From positions 12,298 through 59,308 of the IMG/VR virus record IMGVR_UViG_3300002120_000006: 47,011 nucleotides of DNA; one strand, written 5' to 3'. Origin of the DNA: a virus. The notes under the pieces are model-generated. The model ran no database searches and had not been told where the DNA came from. It worked only from the letters and a program-made list of their open reading frames with translations. The translations under genes and the position numbers were made by a program. This document shows, in pieces, positions 4,897-34,505 of this stretch (the stretch's first letter is position 1; each line of letters begins with the position of its first letter).

Positions 4897-6885
4897 ATGG
4901 TAAGTGACTATCTGGCCGGATATGGTATACATTCTGTTGACTTCGACCAGTTTGTAGAAGCCATCAAAGCAAACGGCACAAATGGCGTAATTTCTGGTTT
5001 AGCAGTTGCACAACGTGGGGCCGGAGCAAACATGAGCGTGGATGTTGCTTCGGGAAAAGCACGAGTAAATGGGACTATACGTACATTTTCTTCTACTACC
5101 AATGTTGTAATATCTGCATCAGACCCAACAAACCCACGTAAAGATTTGATTGTAATCAATTCTGCTGGGACGCTTATTGCAAGAACTGGAACCGCAGCCG
5201 CAGCCGACCCAGTTGCGAATACAAAGAGAGAGACATTCTCACCAGACCCGCCAGAAATGACTGCTGGAGATATTGTATTGGCTGAGGTATGGGTGGGTGC
5301 AGGTGTTACTTCTATTCTTACAGCGGATATATCAGATCGTTCTCTGACAGCTATATTCCCTAACAATATAAGAGTGGCAAATGAATTTCCCGGAGCAGAT
5401 ATTGGAGCACAAGTTGGTGCTGCTAATACCGATATTGGTGGTGCTACACCGGGAGTAATCATTGTTCAACCGGGAACATATACATGGTCAACAGCAGCAT
5501 CGTTGAGTGATGATAGAGTTGTAATATTATATGGAACGTTCATAACTAATGGTTCTAGTGCAGGAACAACATTATTGACAATGGGAAATCGTAGTCTTGT
5601 TTTAGGTGGTGAATTTACAGGGGGTCCAACTGGTAATGGAACTCATATAATCATTACAAAATCTGCAAGAATTATTGGTACTACTTTCTCTGGGACTGCA
5701 ACAACTGGCGAAGCGGTATTATCGAATCCTGCCTCTACCGTAGATGGAGCACCGGGCGTGATAGGATGTTACTTCATAAGCTGCAATAGGGGGATTACAA
5801 CAACTGGTAGTACTGGACTCGTGACTTTTATAGCAAACAATAGTTTTCGTGCATGTACTACAGGAATCTCTGTTACACAGAGTTTCCGAATAGGACCAGA
5901 CAATGATTTTGCAATAACGAATGCGGCTCATGTTGGCATTTCGATTGGCTCTACAACACAGGGTTCTGTTTTCGATAATCACTTCATTTCGTCAACGACA
6001 GCTACTGCCATTGCTTATTCTAATTCTGTAGCCAATATAGATTTTCTATGTATTGAGGGAAATAACTTCACCGGCTCGAATAATATGGTTGGAATATCTC
6101 TAACTGGTTCTTCAAATGCTGATATTGTCAGGATATGTGAAAATACTTTTTATGGATGTGCTAAGGGTATAACATCAGGAGTCTCTGGTAGCGGGAATTT
6201 TGCTATTAATAGTAATGTTTTCAATGCATGTCAAACTGCAGATGTAGAATTTACTACTACAGTACCTTCATATATGTTATACAATAACAAAACTATAGCA
6301 TCTGCAAATGGTATCGTTTATACAGCAACTCCTACAACTGTTAATATAGCCTCAAACGAATCAAATCATGCGTCTTGGTTGAATAATGTTGCTGTAATAC
6401 CTAAATTCGCTGCATTAGTACCATCAGCAGCAATATTACCAGCATCGGGAGCACCTACACTAGCTCAAATTGATGGTACCAATGTATCTTACAAAGTACT
6501 AGATTTCGCTGATGCTGCAACTTCATCCTGTTATTGGGTTTTTGCATTACCTGTGGGATGGAAAGAACGAAATATCGTATTCAAGGTTCGATGGAGGGCC
6601 ACGGCAGCAACAACAGGAAACGTAGTATGGGATATCGCTGTCGCCGGAGTCATAGAAACTGAATCGTTAGACCCTGCATTAACTGCTTTTGGGAATACCA
6701 CTGGCGATGCAGCGGCTGGAACATTAGGGCAGATGAGCGAATTCACTATAACATTTGCATCTACTTCTTTTGCATTAGACGGTGGGGATTTATTATATGT
6801 CAGATTGCAACGTCTTGGAGCCCATGCAAACGATACCATGACAGAAAATGCAAGACTAGTACAAATAACTGTTGATTTGCAGTAG
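4897..6885 (+). CDS. Tail fibre/tailspike with right-handed beta-helix (662 aa)
   Basis: The N-terminal 130 residues resemble the virion-attachment region of many phage fibres, with the sequence V-x-S-G-K-A-R-V-N-G followed by DPTNPRKDLIVI and a later GDIVLAEVWVGAG. Residues about 170-480 are a run of short N/G/T-rich coils (for example NTFYGCAKGI, NVFNACQT) typical of a pectate-lyase-like parallel beta-helix. The last 150 residues form a separate beta-sandwich (WVFALPVGWKERNIVFKVRWRA) common at phage fibre C termini. Such proteins bind or depolymerise surface polysaccharide; catalytic residues cannot be assigned by eye. GGTGA precedes the ATG at a good distance. Confidence 0.75.
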   Translation: MVSDYLAGYGIHSVDFDQFVEAIKANGTNGVISGLAVAQRGAGANMSVDVASGKARVNGTIRTFSSTTNVVISASDPTNPRKDLIVINSAGTLIARTGTAAAADPVANTKRETFSPDPPEMTAGDIVLAEVWVGAGVTSILTADISDRSLTAIFPNNIRVANEFPGADIGAQVGAANTDIGGATPGVIIVQPGTYTWSTAASLSDDRVVILYGTFITNGSSAGTTLLTMGNRSLVLGGEFTGGPTGNGTHIIITKSARIIGTTFSGTATTGEAVLSNPASTVDGAPGVIGCYFISCNRGITTTGSTGLVTFIANNSFRACTTGISVTQSFRIGPDNDFAITNAAHVGISIGSTTQGSVFDNHFISSTTATAIAYSNSVANIDFLCIEGNNFTGSNNMVGISLTGSSNADIVRICENTFYGCAKGITSGVSGSGNFAINSNVFNACQTADVEFTTTVPSYMLYNNKTIASANGIVYTATPTTVNIASNESNHASWLNNVAVIPKFAALVPSAAILPASGAPTLAQIDGTNVSYKVLDFADAATSSCYWVFALPVGWKERNIVFKVRWRATAATTGNVVWDIAVAGVIETESLDPALTAFGNTTGDAAAGTLGQMSEFTITFASTSFALDGGDLLYVRLQRLGAHANDTMTENARLVQITVDLQ

Positions 6886-6899
6886 TGATAGTGATCATC

Positions 6900-7196
6900 A
6901 TGAAGGTTATTGGGTGGAGGATTTATTATACAGATGGAACTACATACGATTCAAATATGGGAGTATGGTCAGAGGCCCCATGCGATGGAGTCCAATTTGT
7001 GATAGAATATATGGAGGATGGAACTAAAAACATACATAGAGGAGAAGATTATTATATATATAGAGATGGGACATTGATGACACCTAACAATCTCAGGCCG
7101 TTCCTAATAGCTATAGGATTCAAGTTTGGGGAATGGACCAATCATGACAATTTTGCCAAAATACAAGAAATGGCGAACAATGATGGTGGATTGTAA
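6900..7196 (+). CDS. Small conserved-type virion/fibre-associated protein (98 aa)
   Basis: Begins MKVIGWRIYYTDGTTYDS and continues with YMEDGTKNIHRGEDYYIYRDG, a compact soluble protein with Trp/Tyr-rich strands. This pattern is often seen in small phage proteins next to fibre genes, but no function is known. The ATG at 6900 is preferred because GTGAT sequences lie just upstream; a GTG at 6885, overlapping the previous TAG, is also possible and would add five residues (MIVII). The gene ends in TAATG, overlapping the next start by one base. Confidence 0.6.
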   Translation: MKVIGWRIYYTDGTTYDSNMGVWSEAPCDGVQFVIEYMEDGTKNIHRGEDYYIYRDGTLMTPNNLRPFLIAIGFKFGEWTNHDNFAKIQEMANNDGGL

Positions 7197-8233: not shown

Positions 8234-9046
8234 ATGCCCGGTTTATCAATTAAACGGTTTTTCTATGATTGGGCCGCTGCTGCTCAATCCAAGTCATATC
8301 TAATCGATATTTTTGTTAAGAAACTGGGAGTTATAAAAGCATATATAATCGATGTTAATGTAGGCGAAGCAATTATTATTGAAAAGACAGAATCTCGTCT
8401 GGGCAGGGCTCGTCTTGGCACATTTAGGTTTGGGGAATTCGTTGTTTCTGGTGTATCTAGAACGATAGCGCGTCTTGGTGAGGCTCGCTTTGGTACATTC
8501 CGATTAGGCGAATTTATATCTGATATTATAAACCCGATAACATCGCCAAGATTTGGTATTGCACGATTAGGGACCTTCAGAATAGGTGTTCTTGGCCAAG
8601 GTCTGATGAATAAAATATATAATATAGATGTATTCACAAGGAAATACGATATAACAAAAACATACTTAACTAATGCTATTTTATTTAAGAGATTCACTAA
8701 GACGTATATTAATGATGTTATGATTAAGAGAATAGGTACTATTAAATTATATACGAACGATGTTATATTGAAAGCCACTGGTACGAATCCTAAAACGTAT
8801 CTATCAGACCTGTTATTAAGAGGAATGAGAAGCAAGGTATATCTAATTAATTTGATATTACAACAAAGTAATGCATCTAAAAATTATATATCCGGAATAA
8901 TCATAAATAAGAGGATTGATAAAGCATATACACTTGATATCTTAATATTAAAGAAGTCAGAAGGTAGAGTAATCGAAATATTTGAAAAGGATAAGGCAAT
9001 AAAAATAAAGGAACATGATAGAATCATAGAAATTGGTGCTGAATGA
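8234..9046 (+). CDS. Repeat protein with RLG modules and K-x-Y-x-x-D array (270 aa)
   Basis: Almost the whole protein is repeats. After an opening MPGLSIKRFFYDWA come two K-x-Y-x-x-D units, then three RLG modules (for example ARLGEARFGTFRLGEF), then about eight more K-x-Y-x-x-D units spaced 16-20 residues apart (TKTYINDVMIKR, IKLYTNDVILKA, PKTYLSDLLLRG). The C-terminal 35 residues are charged (EKDKAIKIKEHDRIIEI). The family is not recognised. Regular alternation of hydrophobic residues suggests short beta-strands stacked into a fibrous shaft. It overlaps the next gene by ATGA, and that gene carries the same repeats at its C terminus, so the two products probably assemble together. Confidence 0.65.
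   Translation: MPGLSIKRFFYDWAAAAQSKSYLIDIFVKKLGVIKAYIIDVNVGEAIIIEKTESRLGRARLGTFRFGEFVVSGVSRTIARLGEARFGTFRLGEFISDIINPITSPRFGIARLGTFRIGVLGQGLMNKIYNIDVFTRKYDITKTYLTNAILFKRFTKTYINDVMIKRIGTIKLYTNDVILKATGTNPKTYLSDLLLRGMRSKVYLINLILQQSNASKNYISGIIINKRIDKAYTLDILILKKSEGRVIEIFEKDKAIKIKEHDRIIEIGAE
8288..8960 (+). repeat. Coding repeat array: K-x-Y-x-x-D units and RLG modules
   Basis: The translated region has about ten units of K-x-Y-x-x-[DN]-x-x-[IL]-x-[KR] at a 16-20 residue period. They are interrupted at about 8394-8590 by three RLG modules with consensus R-[LF]-G-x-[AF]-R-[LF]-G-T-F-R-[LIF]-G. The repetition is clear in protein and weak in DNA, so it is maintained by selection on the protein rather than recent duplication. 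Confidence 0.65.
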
Positions 9047-11511
9047 CAATAGAAGGAGTACCCCCAAATCCATCTGGCGATACTATCATTAATCAGACTA
9101 CACGATGGATTGATGAACCTAATTTGAATCCGGGAGGAAACATTCTTCTTGGTTCAGCATCAAATAGAATTACCTTTGAAATTAAAAATTCTACGGTTAA
9201 TTTGAATGCTGGGGGAGGATATATACGACTTGGTAATACTGCGTCTAATTATAAACAAGTGACATTTAAAATATGGGATGATTCTGATATTAATTTTGGA
9301 GTATCTAATTCAAATGGAATTATAATGGAGAGAATTACAACAGGGGCAGATAGTGCTGGTCATATTTTCATCATAGAACATTCGACCGTGGAGGGCACTG
9401 TCTTATCATTGACAGACTATCCACTTGGAATAAAACTAGATAGTGGTGGCAGTGGGTACAGAAATTCTACGGTACAGTTTTATTATTCAATATTCCGAAA
9501 TATGGGTGATTATTGGAATTCACAGAGATTCATGATTGATACTTTGATAACAAGTGGAGCTTATAGTGTTTATACAACAGATTCTTATGTTAAACAATGT
9601 CAATTTTATGCTCCTGCTGCGCAAGGCAGCCCACCAGCAAGTACACATGGTCCGATGTTTCGTGGTGGCCCAGATTTATTATGTGAAAGAAATTTATTTT
9701 CTGGCGGATTCATGAACATTGGTTTCACTCGAAAAGCAAGATATAATTACATAGCTGGTGGTTGCAGAAAGAATTATGACCCATATTCAACTCTTAGTCA
9801 GCCAGCCTTACATGAATATAACGTTATTAAATTTACATCGAGTCTAGAACTTGGTGGTTGTAAGGATATTGATTTCTTCAGTTCTTACACTGAATTTGCC
9901 AATAATATTTGTCTTACAACAGGTATAAATGCTCAGGAAGGCAATGCTATTAATACATATGTTCATCATAATTCATTCGTTGGTCAAGCGCCGGGTATAA
10001 CTAACAGTACAGGTTCTAGAATAGTAGACAATATATCGTGGAATTATACTGAATTGACTGGCGCTTTTAATGATAGAGGACAAGGTAGCAATACAGTATC
10101 AAGGAATATTGTAAGGGGATGTGGTGCAAATGCTTTCAGACTTGAGCGACTCATAACAGATACGACTACTTATAACACTAATTCTGTTTATGAAGATAAT
10201 ATTGTTTATTCTTTCAATCAAAGTGCATATCAATCTGTTTACAATATGGCTATGAGATTAAGACGTTTAAATACTGCTAATATAAATAGGAATGTATTAA
10301 GTCATGGTGGTGCTTCTTCATCTGGTAATGAATATGGTATTTATGGTTATGATATAAGAAACACTTTATTTAAACAGAATAAAATATACGACACTGGTGT
10401 TGGAATACATCTAACATCCGAAATAAATGTAAGTTCGAATAATACTCTTGAAGATAATATATTCAGAAATATAAAAGGTACAACACATATCAGTTTGACA
10501 AATTCGACTGGTACAATAATCAAGAATCAAGAATTGGTAAATGGTTTGAAAGTCAATGCAACGGCCTCTAATGCTCTTACGTTTTCTTGGACCAATTTAA
10601 AGCCATCTTCATCTTATACATTTTATCAGGATACAGTATCATCTATTGTTAACACAGATGTAACTGGTGCAGCAACAAAAATTATAACACAACCAGCAAC
10701 AATTGTAACATATAGATTAATGGGTCCTGATACACGTTATTTATATCTCATTGGTACTATACTAAGAAAAAGCAATGCTGTCAAAACATATACTATCAAT
10801 ACCCAAATACAAAATGCAGTAAACATACAAAAATTATACACGATTAATGTCATTTTACAAATACCTCCTGCTTTATCAAAAGCATATTTTGTTGACTCTT
10901 TACTCAAAAAACATAATTTTACCAAATCATATATTCTTGATATTTTTACTGGTGTCTTCGAACAAACTCGTAGAAGTTCTCGTATAGGAGAATTTAGATT
11001 AAATGTTACTCGTCTTGGTGAGTATGTTCCATCTGGAAGTCTCATATCCAAAATCAAAACATATTTATCTGATGTATGGGTTCTAAAAACATTAATAGAA
11101 ACATATATTCTGGATTCATTTATTAAAAAATTGAATACTCAGAAAACATATGTCATAAATATGCGCTTATTAAAAATACAACTTAAAACATATATTACTG
11201 ATATCATAATACGCAATAGAAATACAGTTAAAACATATAATCTAAGCGTGCGATTATTGAATCCCGGACAGGTACTAAAGAGTTATCAAGTTAATACTCA
11301 TATTGGGCGAATACCATTTACAAAAGCATATACTATAGATACCATGTTATTATGCAGGTCTTTACCGAGTGCTACATTCGATAACCCCCCCGGTTTTGAT
11401 GTTTCTTCTTTCGATAATTCTTTAATTAAATGCTTTAAATCTTATACAATAGATTTATTTTTAATTAAAAAACATTTGAGAGGTAAAAGAACAAAAATAA
11501 TAAGACCGTAG
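9043..11511 (+). CDS. Beta-helix fibre with C-terminal K-x-Y-x-x-D repeat domain (822 aa)
   Basis: Residues about 15-500 are a parallel beta-helix, with many N/G/S turns and short coils such as NNTLEDNIFRNIKG and ENNICLTTG-like segments, the usual fold of polysaccharide-binding or cleaving tailspikes. A short beta domain follows (about 510-560; TFYQDTVSSIV). Residues about 575-822 carry roughly twelve K-x-Y-x-x-[DN] units, split by one RLG-like module (RIGEFRLNVTRLGEY). The upstream protein has the same architecture at its C terminus. The start overlaps the upstream stop as ATGA. The C-terminal repeat is not a domain I recognise; it may mount the beta-helix on a shared shaft. Confidence 0.75.
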   Translation: MTIEGVPPNPSGDTIINQTTRWIDEPNLNPGGNILLGSASNRITFEIKNSTVNLNAGGGYIRLGNTASNYKQVTFKIWDDSDINFGVSNSNGIIMERITTGADSAGHIFIIEHSTVEGTVLSLTDYPLGIKLDSGGSGYRNSTVQFYYSIFRNMGDYWNSQRFMIDTLITSGAYSVYTTDSYVKQCQFYAPAAQGSPPASTHGPMFRGGPDLLCERNLFSGGFMNIGFTRKARYNYIAGGCRKNYDPYSTLSQPALHEYNVIKFTSSLELGGCKDIDFFSSYTEFANNICLTTGINAQEGNAINTYVHHNSFVGQAPGITNSTGSRIVDNISWNYTELTGAFNDRGQGSNTVSRNIVRGCGANAFRLERLITDTTTYNTNSVYEDNIVYSFNQSAYQSVYNMAMRLRRLNTANINRNVLSHGGASSSGNEYGIYGYDIRNTLFKQNKIYDTGVGIHLTSEINVSSNNTLEDNIFRNIKGTTHISLTNSTGTIIKNQELVNGLKVNATASNALTFSWTNLKPSSSYTFYQDTVSSIVNTDVTGAATKIITQPATIVTYRLMGPDTRYLYLIGTILRKSNAVKTYTINTQIQNAVNIQKLYTINVILQIPPALSKAYFVDSLLKKHNFTKSYILDIFTGVFEQTRRSSRIGEFRLNVTRLGEYVPSGSLISKIKTYLSDVWVLKTLIETYILDSFIKKLNTQKTYVINMRLLKIQLKTYITDIIIRNRNTVKTYNLSVRLLNPGQVLKSYQVNTHIGRIPFTKAYTIDTMLLCRSLPSATFDNPPGFDVSSFDNSLIKCFKSYTIDLFLIKKHLRGKRTKIIRP
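10770..11500 (+). repeat. Coding repeat array, second copy of the K-x-Y-x-x-D family
   Basis: About twelve units such as VKTYTINTQIQN, SKAYFVDSLLKK, TKSYILDIFTG, QKTYVINMRLLK and TKAYTIDTMLL, again spaced 16-20 residues apart. At the DNA level the core AAAACATAT recurs many times, so these copies are more alike in DNA than those in the neighbouring gene. Confidence 0.65.
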
Positions 11512-11589: not shown

Positions 11590-13473
11590 ATGACAATTTT
11601 AAATAACCAAACTAGAGATGCTCCTGTTCCATCGACTGACTGGAATCAGATATTAAAAAATATTCAAGGTGCTATTAGTGGAACTAACTCGAATATAAAT
11701 GGAGCTTTGCTGGATGATGGTAAAAAAATAGTTGGTATCCGCATTGCTACGGAATTCGACACGACGAAACATGCGGGGACAGATGCTGATCCATGGAGCC
11801 GGAACGCCATTACCAATTCTATTATGGATTTGGGCGGCGCGGAGGGAACGATTCTTATCTCCGGTGGAGTTCATAGTATTGATTTGAGTTTGGTTGTGCC
11901 ATCGAATGTCCAACTTATCATTTCTAAAGATTCGAGACTACGAATCGCCACTGGTGTTACTTTTACAATCAACGGTACTTTGGATGCTTCATTAAACAAG
12001 ATATTCGATTTGGTGGGGACAGGGGTAGTAACGTTCGGGACAGTCATCAAGGAATTCTATCCAGAGTGGTGGGGTGCGAAGGGCGATGACGTAACTGATG
12101 ATGCTTCTGCAATTAACCAAATGGCATTGGCCGCTGCCGGAAAAGTATGGCATTTCACATGGGTCTATAGGATTGGTTCGACTATCGTGATATCGGGAAC
12201 CAATACAAGGCTTGTTGGTTCCTCATGGGCAAGTGAGATTAAAGCCATGGATAGTTGGACAACACCAAACCAACCTATGTTTTCTGTCACTGCCACAGGG
12301 GTATCTTTCTTTAATCTAAAGCTGAACGGAAATCGTACTGGGCGCGGACCTGTAACATCGGCCCATATAGTAAGATGCAACACTGATAATCTTTCAATTA
12401 CCAGTTGTTGGATAACGAATGATGCATGGGAAGCCATTCGGTCCATAACAGGAGGAACGCACAACCATTGGCTAATTGCTGATAACTTCATGGATCAAGG
12501 ATATGGAGGTTATGTAATCATTGCTGGTGGAACTAGATGTATTGTCTCACGTAATATCATGCTAACGAGTACATCAGACCCTCAAATCAACTTTGGTAAG
12601 CTAAATGCCCCAGTGGAGAATATCGTTGAAGGCAATGTTGTAGTAGGATCGCAGGACGTTGGAATTTCCTTCAACGTGGCGGGTTCAGCTAGGAATCTCA
12701 TTCGAGGGAATGTTATCATAGATTGTGTCAACGGACCCATTAATGCTTCCTCTAGCACCAATGATATCATCGAAGGAAACCTAACCAAAGGCGCGAACGC
12801 ATCCATAGTTTCAGGAACAAAAACAATTGTGCGGGGCAATAAAATTATTTTCATAAATCCAACTGGAACCGGGGATGGTATCTATACATCGACAGATAAT
12901 CTTATCGAAGGAAATACCATAGAGAATTCTCCGGGGAATGGTATTTCAGCCAATGCTGTACAGAGAGTTTCTATCCTTAACAACCATGTTCGTGGATCGG
13001 GGCAAAATGCCATCCGTAGAGAGATAAACATAAGAAATGGCTCTACTGATATCCTAGTTTTAGGGAATGTCTTGGGTGGCGGTGGGCCAAGTCTCGATTG
13101 GGGTATTCTTATTGAACATACTGGAACAGATAGAATTCGTGTTATCGGAAATGTCGTACAGGGGTACACCAATGCCATTCTCAAGACCTCAGCAACTGGG
13201 AATGATATACTTATCGCAGATAATCCGGGTTATAATCCAATTGGTGTCACATCTATAACAGTCACTGCTTCTCCATTCACCTATATAAATACTGATGGTC
13301 TTAGGGAACTTGTAAGTATTGATGGGGGTACAGTCACTACAGTTACAAAGAATGGAATAACGCTCTACAATTTTGGAGCCACTGCTGCCCGATGTGCTGT
13401 GTGGCTAGAACCGGGAGAAGCATTGATAGTGACTTACACGGTCGCACCGACGATGAACAAAGATAAGAAATGA
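11590..13473 (+). CDS. Pectate-lyase-like tailspike (627 aa)
   Basis: Residues about 150-200 contain EFYPEWWGAKGDDVTDDAS, the hallmark entry (W-G-A-K-x-D-D-x-x-D-x-x-A) into Pectate_lyase_3-type beta-helices of phage tailspikes and glycosidases. The following 350 residues are beta-helix coils with repeated I-x-G-N and N-x-I-x-G motifs. The N-terminal 100 residues should be the virion-binding part, and the C-terminal 80 residues (SITVTASPFTY...NGITLYNFG) a small beta domain. It probably degrades host surface polysaccharide. The gene looks richer in G and C than its neighbours, which may reflect recent acquisition; tailspikes are commonly exchanged. Confidence 0.8.
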   Translation: MTILNNQTRDAPVPSTDWNQILKNIQGAISGTNSNINGALLDDGKKIVGIRIATEFDTTKHAGTDADPWSRNAITNSIMDLGGAEGTILISGGVHSIDLSLVVPSNVQLIISKDSRLRIATGVTFTINGTLDASLNKIFDLVGTGVVTFGTVIKEFYPEWWGAKGDDVTDDASAINQMALAAAGKVWHFTWVYRIGSTIVISGTNTRLVGSSWASEIKAMDSWTTPNQPMFSVTATGVSFFNLKLNGNRTGRGPVTSAHIVRCNTDNLSITSCWITNDAWEAIRSITGGTHNHWLIADNFMDQGYGGYVIIAGGTRCIVSRNIMLTSTSDPQINFGKLNAPVENIVEGNVVVGSQDVGISFNVAGSARNLIRGNVIIDCVNGPINASSSTNDIIEGNLTKGANASIVSGTKTIVRGNKIIFINPTGTGDGIYTSTDNLIEGNTIENSPGNGISANAVQRVSILNNHVRGSGQNAIRREINIRNGSTDILVLGNVLGGGGPSLDWGILIEHTGTDRIRVIGNVVQGYTNAILKTSATGNDILIADNPGYNPIGVTSITVTASPFTYINTDGLRELVSIDGGTVTTVTKNGITLYNFGATAARCAVWLEPGEALIVTYTVAPTMNKDKK

Positions 13474-13575: not shown

Positions 13576-13899
13576 ATGGGAGATTTAATAGTCATTTATA
13601 AAGGCGATGAGGAATTCGAGCGTGAGTTTGAATTGAAAAACGCAGATGGCAGTCCCTATGACCTTACTTCTCATATTGCTAGATTTAAGATGGTTTCAGA
13701 TTATGGTTCTACATCAACTATCGACCAACCTGCAGAAATTGTAACGCCAGAAACAGATGGAAAAGTAAGATATAAATTTTCATCGACTGATACTAGTACC
13801 GTAGGACGTTATTATGCTGAAGTTGAAACAGAAGAAATTACAACTGGAAAAATATTAACATGGAAAATCGCAGCAGTAGAAATCAGACCAACTGTGTGA
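13576..13899 (+). CDS. BppU-N-like/Ig-like beta-sandwich protein (107 aa)
   Basis: Begins MGDLIVIYKGDEEFEREFELKN, continues with SPYDLTSHIARFKM and ends KILTWKIAAVEIRPTV. This matches the small beta-sandwich proteins related to the N-terminal domain of lactococcal-phage BppU, which often sit next to head-tail connector genes. It is likely a virion component at the neck or baseplate. Assignment is by sequence pattern only. Confidence 0.55.
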   Translation: MGDLIVIYKGDEEFEREFELKNADGSPYDLTSHIARFKMVSDYGSTSTIDQPAEIVTPETDGKVRYKFSSTDTSTVGRYYAEVETEEITTGKILTWKIAAVEIRPTV

Positions 13900-29287: not shown

Positions 29288-29507
29288 CCATTTTCATAAG
29301 GCAGAATAATAGGATATTAATACCATCATATATATCATCATATTTCTTATCCAAGAAATCTATATCTATCCATCTGGCTCTCTTCACTTTGACCAAAGCA
29401 TATGCCAACAATTCCTCTAATGTGAATTCTTGCCAGATATCACCATAAGGAGATTTCTTATGGATTTCCAAAGCCTTTTCAATATGTTTCAATATATTAT
29501 CGTTCAT
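29223..29507 (-). CDS. DUF1599/Nmad1-like protein (94 aa)
   Basis: Starts MNDNILKHIEKALEIHKKSP, followed by YGDIWQEF, then VKVKRA and KYDDIYDGINILLFCLMKM. This fits the pattern of DUF1599 ('nucleotide modification associated domain 1'): K-x-x-x-Y-G-D-x-W, K-x-x-R, then D-x-x-D-x-x-N-Y-x-L-L. Family members occur in phages with modified DNA bases and are thought to act on nucleotides; the exact reaction is unknown. The start codon uses the discriminator base of the upstream tRNA-Gly as its A. A longer frame would begin inside the tRNA and is rejected. Confidence 0.6.
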   Translation of the reverse strand: MNDNILKHIEKALEIHKKSPYGDIWQEFTLEELLAYALVKVKRARWIDIDFLDKKYDDIYDGINILLFCLMKMDGIKDGQQGNEEKTKEREIQI

Positions 29508-29579
29508 GCGGCACCCCCGAGTCGAACAGGGACCTTCTCCTTGGAAGGGAGATATGCTGGCCATTGACACCAGTACCGC
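29507..29579 (-). tRNA. tRNA-Gly (anticodon TCC)
   Basis: Read on the minus strand: acceptor GCGGTAC pairs with GTGCCGC (one G-T), the anticodon stem TCTCC/GGAGA holds loop CTTCCAA, and T-arm CCCTG/CGGGG holds TTCGACT. The discriminator base is A, as usual for archaeal and eukaryotic tRNA-Gly rather than bacterial (U). No CCA is encoded. It reads GGA, a frequent codon in the structural genes. Confidence 0.93.
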
Positions 29580-29580
29580 A

Positions 29581-29652
29581 TGGACCTAGCCGGAGTTGAA
29601 CCAGCATCTTCAGGTTGCAAACCTGATATGTTTCCATTGACACCATAGGCCC
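29581..29652 (-). tRNA. tRNA-Ala (anticodon TGC)
   Basis: Acceptor GGGCCTA/TAGGTCC (one G-T), anticodon stem TCAGG/CCTGA with loop TTTGCAA, T-arm GCTGG/CCGGC with loop TTCAACT, discriminator A, no CCA. One base separates it from tRNA-Gly. The acceptor lacks the G3-U70 at its standard place on the 5' strand but has a G-T at pair 3 (G3-T70), the classic alanine identity element. Confidence 0.93.
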
Positions 29653-29665
29653 GTATTATTTTTGA

Positions 29666-29736
29666 TGGAATCGTCCGGAATCGAACCGGGTTCATACGGT
29701 CTTCAGCCGTGCGCTTTCCCATTAAGCTACAATTCC
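29666..29736 (-). tRNA. tRNA-Phe (anticodon GAA)
   Basis: Acceptor GGAATTG/CGATTCC (one T-G), D-arm GCTT/AAGC, anticodon loop CTGAAGA, T-loop TTCGATT, discriminator A, no CCA. Two pairs are broken (27-43 C/A and 49-65 C/A), so it is slightly degenerate yet probably functional. Its codons are TTT and TTC, which are also the codons of the proposed chaperone slip site. Confidence 0.85.
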
Positions 29737-29754
29737 TTATATTATCATCATTAG

Positions 29755-29826
29755 CGCAGGTGATTGGATTCGAACCAATACCCCCTTCGTTAACAGCGAA
29801 GTGCGCTACCATTGCGCCACACCTGC
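29755..29826 (-). tRNA. tRNA-Asn (anticodon GTT)
   Basis: Perfect acceptor GCAGGTG/CACCTGC, anticodon stem CTTCG/CGAAG with loop CTGTTAA, T-arm ATTGG/CCAAT with TTCGAAT, discriminator G as usual for Asn, no CCA. It is the first of four tRNA genes in a tight cluster read towards lower coordinates. Confidence 0.95.
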
Positions 29827-31296: not shown

Positions 31297-31825
31297 TTCT
31301 GACTTTAATCACAACTGGGTCTAATTCCCATATCTTCTCTTTCATATTCCTTATGATTTTAAAGGAAGCGACTTTCTCTAACGTACCCCATTTGATACTG
31401 TTCTTATTCTCCATCACTTCCATGGCTTGTGTCAGTTCCAACGGTGTCAGAGCATAAGCCGACATATGAAACGGCACACGCCTGCAAATAATAAAATAAT
31501 AATGACTCCCTGCATCCATTATCTCAAAGCCCTTCTCCAACTGATGGGGCTTGATATAAGTGATGTTGTAACTCGTTGTATTTCTCGATGACTTTTCTTC
31601 AATGTAACAAGTCTTTCCTGCTACAATGAATATGTGGTCTGCTGGTACTTTGGGCATGATTACATTGGGGAATAGTGGAGAGAAACACTTCTGGCATTTC
31701 ATGCCATAGGATTTGGTGTCACTGATTCTTTCCCAATACAACAACTTGCCATATTTAGTCTGTTTTAGATGTTCTAAGGAGTCCTGTATCTCCTTTTGGA
31801 ATGCATAACCATGCTCATTACTCAT
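31286..31825 (-). CDS. RecU-like Holliday-junction resolvase/nuclease (179 aa)
   Basis: Fits the RecU branch of PD-(D/E)XK nucleases: G-Y-A-F-Q-K-E-I near the N terminus, P-A-D63-H-I-F, then C-Y-I-E76-E-K78-S-S, and K-P-H94-Q95 followed by AGSHYYFIICRR. The D...ExK catalytic core and the HQ motif are all present. An added C-Q-K-C (44-47) may bind zinc, which is unusual in RecU. It would resolve recombination or replication branches. The start at 31825 is chosen for the ATGAGTAA overlap with the upstream gene. Confidence 0.65.
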   Translation of the reverse strand: MSNEHGYAFQKEIQDSLEHLKQTKYGKLLYWERISDTKSYGMKCQKCFSPLFPNVIMPKVPADHIFIVAGKTCYIEEKSSRNTTSYNITYIKPHQLEKGFEIMDAGSHYYFIICRRVPFHMSAYALTPLELTQAMEVMENKNSIKWGTLEKVASFKIIRNMKEKIWELDPVVIKVRNGV

Positions 31826-33077
31826 TATAAACACCCATATATTTAAATAATTTTTTTGGTCTCATACGCCATAATATTCTTCCGGCTGTTCTTTCATCTC
31901 CTAATATTTTATTTTTTATTTCTGTGTCAGATAGTCTTTTACCGCCGGGAGCAATTAAATAATGTGCCTCCTTTGTGAACTCAGATAATATTTCTCTTGC
32001 TATATTATTCATACAAAATGATGTACAATAAGATTTTGAAAACCATTTGTGGGGTTCAAATCCTAATACTGTTAATTTATTCAAAAGAGATTTATTGGCT
32101 TTTGTTTCTATCTCGCCATCAAATCTCATACCAGCACGTTCAAATATAGGATTATACTTTGCCATTGCAGCAACAACATCAGCATTTGGATATTTCTTTA
32201 GATAATACTGAACGAGTAACTTACCAAAACCTATACCTCGATATGATGGATGTACGACAAGACGAGATATTCTTCTTCCACCGTCATGCATTCTATATGT
32301 TCCAATAAGAAATCCCACTGTTTTATCTTTGAATTGTAATCTAATATAATCTTTAATACCTCCTGTGTATTTACCTTTATAATGTAAAACACCAATTGGT
32401 TCTTTTTTATACCAATCTTTTGTTTCTTCTATTATTTTTAAATCATTATTGTTAATAAATAAGTTCTTATTATGTTCTTTATATTGTGGATATGCGACAT
32501 CCCATCTAGACGGAAATGCTTTACCAGCAATAATCAAATCTGGTTGTAAATAAGGTATTATATCAACATGGGCGCTCGCAATAATAGCCGTTAAATTTAA
32601 TTTTCTGACAATCTTTTGAAAGTTATAAGCAATGACAAAAGCTGTGTCTCTATCTAGAGAGGATAGAAATTCATCTATTATGATAGGACAATCATTCTTT
32701 GATTCCAAAATCATTTTAGATAAACGTGCCCTCATTTTCTGACTATCACTTAAATATTTATAAGGTGTTAAAAACATTGTAGCATCGCCAAGACCTACAA
32801 GAGATAAGATTTGTAATGTTTTTTCTAAAGTATCACCATATGTATAAAGTGGCTTATTTTCATCTATAAAAATCTTGGTTTCGTTTCCTAATGAGTTTAA
32901 TAATGTTGTTTTCCCGCATCCAGATTCGCCAGTTATATATACTAAACGGGGAAGTATATCAGGCAATTCTATATCTATGACATTATTTATAAATCCTTCA
33001 TCTATACCAAAAGATTCGCCAATTTCTATAGCTTCATCTGAATCGATTTTATAATTAAAGGTCTTTTTTATTTTCAT
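31818..33077 (-). CDS. ABC-type ATPase fused to GNAT acetyltransferase (COG2401-like, 419 aa)
   Basis: Residues 1-195 are a soluble ABC ATPase: Walker A GESGCGKT (50-57), signature LSDSQ (109-113), Walker B IIIDEF (D135, E136) and an H-loop at H170. Residues about 235-400 are a GNAT fold with the acetyl-CoA loop R-G-I-G-F-G (280-285). This order matches COG2401, an archaeal/bacterial family whose function is not established. GNAT-like enzymes such as Mom of phage Mu modify DNA bases, so a DNA-modifying role is one option; protein acetylation is another. No membrane segments occur, so it is not a transporter. The ATG at 33077 overlaps the previous gene by 23 nt. Confidence 0.85.
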   Translation of the reverse strand: MKIKKTFNYKIDSDEAIEIGESFGIDEGFINNVIDIELPDILPRLVYITGESGCGKTTLLNSLGNETKIFIDENKPLYTYGDTLEKTLQILSLVGLGDATMFLTPYKYLSDSQKMRARLSKMILESKNDCPIIIDEFLSSLDRDTAFVIAYNFQKIVRKLNLTAIIASAHVDIIPYLQPDLIIAGKAFPSRWDVAYPQYKEHNKNLFINNNDLKIIEETKDWYKKEPIGVLHYKGKYTGGIKDYIRLQFKDKTVGFLIGTYRMHDGGRRISRLVVHPSYRGIGFGKLLVQYYLKKYPNADVVAAMAKYNPIFERAGMRFDGEIETKANKSLLNKLTVLGFEPHKWFSKSYCTSFCMNNIAREILSEFTKEAHYLIAPGGKRLSDTEIKNKILGDERTAGRILWRMRPKKLFKYMGVYNE

Positions 33078-33192
33078 GGTTGCACACACATATCTTATTG
33101 GCGAACCATCCGTAACAATCCTTATGCATATTCACCTGACAACATACGCATTGTTTTTGTTCCTCATTGTCCCTTATGTACTCTTGTTTCAT
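33055..33192 (-). CDS. Mini zinc protein with CVCC and CVC motifs (45 aa)
   Basis: MKQEYIRDNEEQKQCVCCQV, then MHKDCYGWFANKICVCNH. Seven cysteines and two histidines in 45 residues point to a zinc knuckle. The start at 33192 has GAGAGGGGA just upstream. A longer frame up to 33282 is read through the neighbouring C2H2 gene and is less likely. It overlaps the C2H2 gene by 29 nt and the ABC-GNAT gene by 23 nt. Confidence 0.55.
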   Translation of the reverse strand: MKQEYIRDNEEQKQCVCCQVNMHKDCYGWFANKICVCNHENKKDL

Positions 33193-33307: not shown

Positions 33308-33450
33308 GTTAACACCTTTCCACTACCATTGCATTCATAACAGAAATTTAGATGCGTTATTTCCACAGGATTGTTTTTATTATGTACATATCCCCTGCCA
33401 TTACAATAAGGACATGGTTTTGCAGTCTTACCACGGAATGAATCTCTCAT
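33304..33450 (-). CDS. DnaJ-type zinc-finger mini protein (48 aa)
   Basis: MRDSFRGKTAKPCPYCNGRG and later FCYECNGSGKV form two C-x-x-C-x-G-x-G motifs, the repeat of the DnaJ central zinc domain. There is no J domain, so it is a stand-alone zinc module, of the kind found scattered in phage genomes. It may be a chaperone-like or disulfide-related adaptor. The ATG overlaps the GMP-reductase-like stop as ATGA. Confidence 0.65.
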   Translation of the reverse strand: MRDSFRGKTAKPCPYCNGRGYVHNKNNPVEITHLNFCYECNGSGKVLT

Positions 33451-34505
33451 AATGTCGTCCACTTCTTCTTTTCTCTTAACTTTGAAATATTCTCAGAACC
33501 CATATATGCTAGACCGTGCTTGATTCCACCCACAAGTCTATTGATAATTGTTTCTGTCGTTTCCCCGGTATCTGGAATGTATACCGTTCTGCCTTCCGGG
33601 GCTTCAATGTGAGCAATAGTGGATGCATCTTCTCCTGTTCGTTTGATTCGTTCTCTTTCTGCATGTTCGCTTGCCATCCCGCTATAAATTACATATGTCT
33701 TAGTCCAAGGTAAATATGTATTATTAAATGTTACGCCGTCATCTGCCAATTGCCCTACGGTACGAGATGCGGGAGATTTATCTGTCGGAGCCAGTAATTT
33801 TCCTATGAATACCGTATCAGCACCAGCGGCCAGACATTTGACTATATCCCCACTATTTCGTATTCCGCCGTCTGATACTATCGGTGTTTCTGGATATCTT
33901 TCTCGTATCTTCTCAATAGCCACCAACTGGTTATAAGCAACACCAGTTGTAATCCTAGTAATACAAGACTGACCAGAACCAATTCCCACACGGAATCCGT
34001 CAATACCTGCGTCATAGTATCTCTCTGCGGCCTCTGTAGTGACTATATTTGCAGATATAATATCAATGCTATATATCTTTTTTATGTATTTCACCAAGTC
34101 ATAGCATTGTTTCATATCACCGTGGGCCACATCCATTGTCAATACATTACATCCAGCATTATACAACATATCAATGCGTTTCTCTTGGTTATTGACACTG
34201 ATAGATGCTCCGACATGTAATCCTGCGTCTCTGACTTTTTTGATTTGCTCTGCTTGTTCCCATTCAGGCATATAACGATGGATGATTCCTAGTCCACCAG
34301 AAGCTGCCATGAATGCGGCCATTTTGGTTTCTGTCACGCTATTCATTGGAGAGGAGATGATGGGATGTTTTAATTTAACATGACCGAACACAGTATCTAA
34401 TGATATCTGGTCCCTATTGGTCATTTCACTGTATTGAGGGACCAGCCAATATTTATCATAATCACTTTCTATTTCTGCGTTCAGTGATATCCACCCCCAT
34501 TGCAT
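33447..34505 (-). CDS. guaC-like: GMP reductase-like (IMPDH/GMPR family) enzyme (352 aa)
   Basis: A full TIM-barrel of the IMPDH/GMPR family: DKYWLVPQYSEM near the N terminus, catalytic loop GIGSGQSCITR (C181, T183), SDGGIRNSGDIVKCLAAGAD, YSGMASE, and EAPEGRTV near the end. The flap is short and lacks the Arg-Tyr dyad of IMP dehydrogenase, and there are no CBS domains. Both facts, and the length, favour GMP reductase (GMP to IMP with NADPH). Viral examples are uncommon. It would redirect guanine nucleotides towards adenine or a modified purine. The N terminus overlaps the upstream gene by 44 nt; no later start would keep the barrel. Confidence 0.85.
   Translation of the reverse strand: MQWGWISLNAEIESDYDKYWLVPQYSEMTNRDQISLDTVFGHVKLKHPIISSPMNSVTETKMAAFMAASGGLGIIHRYMPEWEQAEQIKKVRDAGLHVGASISVNNQEKRIDMLYNAGCNVLTMDVAHGDMKQCYDLVKYIKKIYSIDIISANIVTTEAAERYYDAGIDGFRVGIGSGQSCITRITTGVAYNQLVAIEKIRERYPETPIVSDGGIRNSGDIVKCLAAGADTVFIGKLLAPTDKSPASRTVGQLADDGVTFNNTYLPWTKTYVIYSGMASEHAERERIKRTGEDASTIAHIEAPEGRTVYIPDTGETTETIINRLVGGIKHGLAYMGSENISKLREKKKWTTL

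Follow-up and report, generated by a model that had tools for sequence, protein, structure and literature searches.

Two adjoining genes of an uncultivated tailed virus, here p1 and p2, carry arrays of a short motif, raising the question of which repeat family they belong to and what the arrays might build. Both genes lie on the plus strand of a 47,011-nucleotide stretch (37.5% GC) of IMG/VR record IMGVR_UViG_3300002120_000006, referred to as the window. The open reading frames of p1 (8234..9046, 270 residues) and p2 (9043..11511, 822 residues) are both present and overlap at ATGA, in agreement with the coupling proposed in the original prediction.

Repeat units in p1 and p2

The motif K.Y..[DNS]..[ILVFMT] matched nine times in p1 and 11 times in p2, where all matches fall within residues 581-799, as against means of 0.06 and 0.19 (maxima 2 and 3) in 2000 shuffles of each protein. 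Two looser units, KNYISG in p1 and ETYILD in p2, raise the totals to 10 and 12, and with these included the predicted counts of about ten and twelve were borne out. The predicted unit length of 16-20 residues was too long; the measured spacing is 14-16, with successive spacings of 15, 14, 15, 16, 14, 15 and 14 residues in the main run of p1, and of 16, 16 and 15, then 14, 15, 14, 15, 16 and 15, in p2.

On the plus strand of p1, units 1-2 (8291..8377) are followed by three copies, spaced by about 25 residues, of another motif, R[LFI]G..R[LFI]G (8396..8599), and then by units 3-10 (8612..8962). As this RLG element occupies residues 55-122, p1 is mostly array rather than almost all repeat, as had been described. 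In p2, an N-terminal region of about 570 residues precedes the 12-unit array, which is confined to the last 250 residues and runs, also on the plus strand, from units 1-4 (10783..10971) through a single degenerate RIG/RLG element that aligns with that of p1 (10972..11040) and units 5-11 (11056..11370) to unit 12 (11437..11478), close to the C terminus. The beta-helix said to precede the array was read from the look of the sequence and had no match in Pfam (E up to 0.1 and 1) or among PDB sequences (E up to 1). The two arrays are paralogous (E=2e-15), so that one repeat is common to both proteins as proposed. Units within an array are 27-29% identical in p1 and p2, the p2 figure taking in one false unit at residue 447, compared with 31-68% in the other array ORFs described below.

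A 14-residue repeat family in other viruses

The repeat shared by p1 and p2 is not limited to the window virus. Using DNA patterns, we located arrays with the 14-residue consensus K-T-[FY]-T-x-D-A-[IL]-L-x(4)-T, and confirmed them by a profile built on 220 triple units from outside the window. Arrays of this family occur in one MAG contig and in 40 virus records, a count to which the window and near-duplicates contribute; by inspection, these virus records contain near-identical sequences from different samples (L033/L053/L063, L038/L041/L042, L040/L057, L048/L054/L069 and L035/L055). The family profile scored 64.2 bits against p1 (top single match 30.4 bits, residues 141-184, within units 3-10), 47.6 against p2 and 56.7 against the last 252 residues of p2 alone, while the best of 2000 shuffles reached 8.5 bits. 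When the anchor residues were held fixed, 0 of 500 shuffles attained the real score for either p1 or the C-terminal part of p2 (maxima 51.3 and 37.2). The window arrays contain at least three head-to-tail units at 13-17 residues, and judged by sequence they are a divergent branch of this widespread family. Among 613 adjacent spacings of 13-17 residues, 491 were of 14 and 104 of 15. Canonical arrays, such as those of L043, L050 and L063, share with the window arrays the anchors K1, Y/F3, D/N6 and hydrophobic residues at 8-9, the head-to-tail arrangement at a spacing of 14-16 and a linked gene of about 190 residues, whereas the window units have Tyr instead of Phe and are less regularly spaced, and no array protein other than p1 and p2 showed the RLG element.

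Arrays were present in 37 of 42 stretches of one candidate set and in 11 of 16 of another. Five stretches were dropped by eye as low-complexity before counting (L046, L070, L076, L077 and L078) and five for having no array ORF (L031, L032, L036, L052 and L073). A pattern run on genome contigs gave 13 stretches, with arrays of the family in L026 only; inspection by eye assigned the runs in L017, L019, L022, L024 and L027 to other kinds of simple repeat. For the Methanosarcinales virus vir525, tblastn pointed to a possible degenerate array (E 4.7e-5), which was left out of the counts because it scored 1.0 and 4.3 bits with the profile.

As the original prediction held, the unit matched no known repeat convincingly in Pfam (p1, p2 and 40 array proteins), PHROGs (p1, p2 and seven array proteins), NCBIfam (six array proteins) or the PDB, and profile searches gave no solved relatives of note for the arrays or the 190-residue family. 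Summed over the repeats, Pfam Polo_box_4 reached 7e-7 in L012, over its cut-off, and 2e-8 in one of the 40 proteins, and phrog_13412 and phrog_8522 reached 3.3e-6 and 1.1e-6; we read such low summed E-values, in which no stretch passes alone, as artefacts of repetition. A single stretch of p1 matched phrog_37813 at E=0.021. Searches by tblastn, whose low-complexity filter may mask arrays, gave nothing in 50,697 phage records for p1, p2 and L012 (limit 0.01) or L050 (limit 1), and no match in a plasmid collection for L012 (0.01) or L043 (1). A match of L043 in an Oceanospirillum phage (E 3e-3) proved on reading to be a TPADA repeat and was rejected. Literal motif strings were not found in the open-licence PMC literature, and nothing on the repeat was found in the part of the literature available to us.

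Repeats of this kind could in principle be low-complexity products of recent tandem DNA duplication with no specific structure. The 37.5% GC of the window and, in L055, L061 and L064, slightly more shared codons than expected would suit such an origin, but at same-residue sites the frequency of identical codons fell within 0.05 of what the codon use of the array itself predicts in 48 of 51 ORFs, near-duplicates being counted, and in L039, with a unit identity of 68%, it was 0.40 observed against 0.40 expected. Apart from the three arrays with an excess, synonymous codon choice varies almost at random from unit to unit although the residues stay, and therefore selection keeps the protein motif. 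Considering further that the DNA repeats of the window arrays are imperfect (60-83% identity to the reference copy) and that the motif recurs across 40 records, we regard recent duplication as very improbable.

The 190-residue partner gene and the head module

The partner gene of the window virus (G000:10120-10716) lies outside the window, about 9.8 kb before p1. It clusters with 15 other contigs by phmmer and matches the partner profile, of which it is itself a row, at E=9.7e-76; the underlying alignment A5 leaves out one of 17 cluster members, a 170-residue second copy in L055. A gene of about 190 residues is present in 31 of the 40 array records, two further window-virus records being left out of this count, and in eight of the nine misses the array is at a contig end. 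Conversely, 25 of 29 records found by the 190-residue gene, a set overlapping with the 40, contain arrays, 21 in the flank and four elsewhere in the record. The protein is likely an anchor or adaptor of the array proteins. L106 has the gene and no array, vir525 carries a homologue, and among 395 genomes of the phylum to which the L026 MAG belongs, the family was found in one, the MAG itself. A candidate second partner family of about 130 residues (A6) gave an hhalign probability of 1.2 (E 0.046) against a 162-residue gene adjoining the 190-residue gene, and 6.7 (E 0.0054, only 15 columns aligned) against 6885-7196.

The position of the array gene favours the head module. In L083, L094 and L104 the order is portal, head protein, 190-residue gene and array, with differing head-protein PHROGs. 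The array gene lies between the major head protein and the tail tube (or phrog_290) in L083 and the window virus, between head protein and head-tail adaptor in L094, and after the head protein in L104. We tallied 142 of 163 listed neighbour ORFs, ten duplicate or short loci having been skipped beforehand; most had no PHROG match, and 17 among the 25 families listed of 59 were head, protease, neck or adaptor. The window neighbour 4897-6885 also hits a PHROG annotated as head protein (3.3e-10), but its N-terminal domain follows the tape measure in HRTV-4 and Butyrivibrio virus Ceridwen, which would instead agree with the arrays being baseplate-associated linkers or stalks. In L026 (677 residues) and L011 (645 residues), units stand on both sides of a domain resembling, in L026, phrog_1160, a baseplate protein (2.5e-5), and phrog_22472, of unknown function (2.1e-4), and in L011, phrog_6277, likewise unknown (6.5e-6), and phrog_22472 (0.024). 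Furthermore, a small BppU_N-domain protein (13576..13899, plus strand; Pfam 3.1e-10) is encoded beside the window cluster and has relatives in three other array contigs, whereas p1 and p2 have no phrog_1160 or BppU domain at E up to 0.1. A baseplate location is thus a substantial possibility, to which we give somewhat less than even weight. The next gene after p2 (11590..13473, plus strand, 627 residues) encodes a beta-helix protein (Pfam NosD 2.5e-6, PHROG tail spike 1.5e-12), and its product may form the head group of the appendage that contains the arrays.

Possible fold and role of the arrays

Two structure models, including p1 from the window pair with canonical arrays in its alignment, showed about one beta-strand per unit (pLDDT 61.4 and 44.9). 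Foldseek gave no match under 0.001 for these models. By VIA-align, the best solved relatives of both were the SufB/SufD parallel beta-helices, at 5-11% sequence identity on weak models and with a Z of 10.4 for p1, under the trust level of the tool (about 13 for repeats); families missing from its lists are not thereby ruled out. SufB and SufD are not known as short-repeat stalks. A two-unit periodicity was absent in sequence and spacing, lag 2 exceeding lags 1 and 3 in 27 of 48 runs. Based on the models, the arrays are possibly a two-sided parallel solenoid. Each unit would form a strand and a brief turn; one face would carry F/Y3, x5, A7 and L9, the opposite face T2, T4, D6 and I8, and stacked units may form a long all-beta rod with ladders of K and D.

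Instead of a one-chain solenoid, the arrays could form an interwound trimeric beta-shaft. The triple beta-spirals of adenovirus and reovirus have a shaft repeat of about 15 residues, marked by Gly or Pro at the turn of each unit. The period of 14-15 residues and alternating hydrophobics seen here resemble the beta repeat of these thin fibres, and low monomer confidence would suit an obligate trimer. However, the conserved turn is missing: across the columns of 634 distinct units, Pro never exceeds 3.2% and Gly never exceeds 15.5%. A trimeric shaft of a different type may still fit, but overall we consider a trimeric shaft rather unlikely.

Our preferred reading, held with moderate confidence, is that p1 and p2 carry divergent arrays of a widespread repeat, and that array proteins serve as stalks of virion-surface adhesins with a 190-residue anchor. 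Architecture and gene position agree with the predicted fibre role, and p1 and p2 are probably fibre parts. The stalk role would follow from varied N-terminal regions being mounted on a common rod. In the 40 array proteins these regions matched four Pfam families at 1e-5 (in two, one, one and one proteins), two of them implausible, and 26 of 52 array ORFs, some of them cut, have fewer than 100 residues ahead of the first unit. Proteins that consist of little but array, p1 among them, may lengthen the stalk or partner with p2-like proteins; co-assembly of p1 and p2 is plausible because loci with two array ORFs recur, at seven loci plus the record of L039 and L066. The two-ORF locus of L011 is perhaps a single frameshifted gene. 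A more elaborate and doubtful proposal is a modular adhesin display, in which the 190-residue adaptor combines with zipping 14-residue arrays, unrelated binding domains that can be swapped and p1-like setters of length or stoichiometry; such a system is not named in the libraries searched.

The profile makes a stalk-like repeat missed by the annotation libraries checked searchable, and the partner gene makes the module findable. Since the units are short and modular, array and adaptor could be expressed to test how fibres assemble, and the N-terminal regions hint at candidate binding parts in viruses that lack cultured hosts. As regards the host, terminase identity was 24-29% among the 15 matches listed, and a reverse transcriptase, found in none of eight IMG/VR records, is present once in vir525.

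Homologous arrays and their repeat family

The window covers bases 12,298-59,308 of an IMG/VR virus record 59,308 bases long. Both genes of the original prediction were present, p1 at window 8234-9046 (plus strand, 270 residues, mostly array) and p2 at 9043-11511 (plus strand, 822 residues, array in the C-terminal part), and their ATGA coupling was seen. The repeat is established in both proteins, where counts of K-x-Y-x-x-[DN] far exceeded those of shuffled controls and the copies in p2 lay only at residues 581-799. The predicted numbers of about ten and twelve units were recovered (10 in p1 and 12 in p2 once two looser units were included), while the predicted unit of 16-20 residues had to be shortened, as the spacing inside runs was 14-16. 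Aligning the two arrays established their homology (E=2e-15, 237 columns, 27% identity). Because the arrays are homologous and the RLG element of p1, an R[LFI]G..R[LFI]G motif, also aligned with p2, p1 appears to be a stand-alone paralogue of the p2 C-terminal part, or vice versa. Both genes recurred at 100% identity in two further IMG/VR records. A second repeat (R[LFI]G.[AF]R[LFI]GTF-like) is nested in the arrays, occurring in p1 three times at intervals of about 25 residues (window 8396-8599) and in p2 once, in degenerate form (10972-11040). Among the loci scanned, no other array protein had this RLG-type repeat; at locus L030, a short FRVG-FRVG run was found, but in another frame region.

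Using a three-unit DNA pattern, we found the same array type in three further viral records as well as in a single contig of a Deltaproteobacteria MAG. Fixed-period patterns in IMG/VR returned 42 stretches at 14 residues (37 with array ORFs) and 16 at 15 residues (11 with array ORFs). The consensus of 642 distinct copies was K(88%)-T(57%)-[FY]-T(53%)-[IAV]-D(91%)-A(50%)-[IL]-[LI]-x-x-x-x-T(43%); because a motif was used to choose the copies, the high frequencies of K, F/Y and D are built in. Among 613 adjacent spacings of 13-17 residues, 491 were 14 and 104 were 15. Membership of p1 and p2 in this family is established: a profile of 220 triples containing zero window sequences scored 64 bits on p1 and 48 bits on p2, against a maximum of 8.5 in 2000 shuffles. 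To answer the motif-based selection of units, a second control kept the anchor residues fixed, and none of the 500 shuffles of p1, nor of the 500 of the p2 C-terminal part, reached the real score. Considering that the best anchored shuffles reached 51 and 37 bits, respectively, the anchors supply a good part of the profile signal.

Selection on the protein motif is likewise established, and it is residues, not DNA, that are being kept. Between units of one array, the rate at which the same amino acid had the same codon was close to that expected from codon use in the array itself: the two differed by no more than 0.05 in 48 of 51 ORFs, a count that includes near-duplicates. Observed and predicted values were 0.54 and 0.52 in p1 and 0.67 and 0.63 in p2. 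At L039, where units were 68% identical in residues, codon coincidence was 0.40 against a predicted 0.40; L055, L061 and L064 had an excess of 0.06-0.09. Direct DNA repeats inside the window arrays were imperfect (60-83% identity to the reference copy).

As the original prediction had held, the unit matched no recognised repeat, here in the libraries searched: p1 and p2 gave no meaningful Pfam or NCBIfam score and no useful PDB sequence match, and phrog_37813 matched p1 weakly (E=0.021). A small number of Pfam and PHROG models reached low E-values on further array proteins through summed weak repeated matches, with no stretch passing alone; we treated these as artefacts. The repeat is an unnamed, recurring, stalk-like one with a linked partner gene, though ordinary in type.

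A linked gene of 190 residues

When array neighbours were clustered, 16 contigs (this virus among them, at G000:10120-10716) shared a family of proteins about 190 residues long, and 13 shared another about 130 residues long. The 190-residue family was found in 29 IMG/VR records, 21 of which had an array in the flank examined (the weakest at L110, L098 and L105, with 21, 34 and 44 bits), always on the same strand (21/21) and downstream except at L108. Four more (L089, L090, L100 and L109) had arrays outside that flank, at loci L045, L058, L043 and L005, and less than 1.8 kb of downstream sequence was examined for L088, L091 and L096. L106 was a true miss, as tblastn with a canonical KTFTADAIL-type array detected none across the whole 57-kb record. 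Conversely, 31 of 40 array records contained the 190-residue gene; of the nine records without it, eight have their array at the end of the contig, where hardly any upstream sequence or none is left, the exception being G424 (L057), with about 3 kb upstream lacking the gene. The linkage is established within a set of lineages and is no independent census, because the two tests overlap in many records and the query was drawn from array-bearing contigs. The gene lay about 9.8 kb from p1 in this virus and mostly 0.3-5 kb from arrays elsewhere.

Among 50,697 phage records, the family had a single match, in the Methanosarcinales virus vir525. Near that homologue, vir525 encodes a protein whose sequence resembles a degenerate D-x-x-[IL] pattern (BK063673.1 28878-30689; L080:19709-21520), and the record also encodes a reverse transcriptase. 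The 190-residue protein had no match in PHROGs (one member), Pfam (two members) or the PDB (profile). In this virus, the adjacent 162-residue gene was not confirmed as the 130-residue partner. One 48.9-kb record (3300025889_000183; L039/L066) has two 190-residue genes towards opposite ends, with array genes near each.

Gene order and array protein architecture

Head genes preceded the arrays at L083 (portal, protease, major head protein, 190 aa, 130 aa, two array genes and a protein of phrog_290, which the window's tail tube also matches), at L094 (portal, head protein, 190 aa, 130 aa, a 1557-aa gene, array, head-tail adaptor) and at L104 (portal, protease, head protein, 190 aa, array, with unassigned genes interspersed), and the head-protein PHROGs were not the same among the three. 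The order in this virus fits their pattern: DUF2213 protein, head protein, 190-residue gene, fibre-like genes including p1 and p2, BppU_N gene, tail tube and tape measure. For its major head protein (L008:7751-8659), the encapsulin family Linocin_M18 (5.2e-11) was a better match than the capsid families of phages. Among 142 array neighbours, most of which matched no PHROG, the 25 families listed of 59 comprised 17 head, protease, neck or adaptor, 2 minor tail, 2 endolysin and 4 unknown families, a few proteins supplying several.

The arrays of 26 of 52 ORFs were preceded by at least 100 residues; among the remaining 26, several were cut by the locus end and several (e.g. L029, L043, L050) were nearly all array, as is p1. 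Pfam searches of the N-terminal regions of 40 array proteins returned Laminin_G_3 in two, Gly_rich_2 in one and two implausible single matches. Two or more array ORFs occurred at seven loci, and two also in the record of L039 and L066; two overlapping frames among the three at L011 are possibly one frameshifted gene. At L026 (the Deltaproteobacteria contig) and L011, units lay both before and after a domain, which matched baseplate-type PHROGs at L026 (phrog_1160, 2.5e-5; phrog_6, 0.006) and PHROGs without assigned function at L011. Each array ORF at L013:8948-9790 and L013:5877-6881 terminates in a second tandem repeat, KPTASGRQ.

The neighbour at 4897-6885 matched a PHROG labelled head protein (3.3e-10), and its N-terminal domain follows the tape measure in both HRTV-4 and Ceridwen. 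This placement, the baseplate fusions and the BppU_N gene oppose a purely head reading, and we lean only slightly towards arrays on the capsid rather than the baseplate.

Structure models and further genes

AlphaFold2 modeled about one β-strand per unit in both p1 (pLDDT 44.9, pTM 0.40) and a canonical array (pLDDT 61.4, pTM 0.59), in which residues 127-196 were a single unbroken strand run by DSSP. In VIA-align, where scores under roughly 13 may carry little meaning for repeats, SufB/SufD β-helices ranked top for the canonical array (Z 16.9, rmsd 3.9, 210 aligned; next unrelated row 11.6) and for the p1 model (Z 10.4, rmsd 3.5, 193 aligned; next 6.0), the latter among only 27 chains compared. 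Foldseek alone gave nothing below 0.001 for array models. The models hint at an all-β, elongated form and, more faintly, at a two-strand coil, for or against which sequence periodicity does not decide. The arrays probably form a β rod, and a β-solenoid may be entertained tentatively. We consider it likely that they are the stalk of surface adhesins, for which the 190-residue protein may be the anchor; the co-assembly of p1 and p2 is somewhat doubtful.

Elsewhere in the window, an IMP dehydrogenase/GMP reductase-like gene (33447-34505; Pfam 5.6e-79) is a possible auxiliary purine gene, and a single ORF at 31818-33089 joins an AAA ATPase-like half to a GNAT acetyltransferase half. Four clustered tRNA genes (Gly, Ala, Phe and Asn; 29506-29826, minus strand) lie immediately upstream of a family B DNA polymerase gene.
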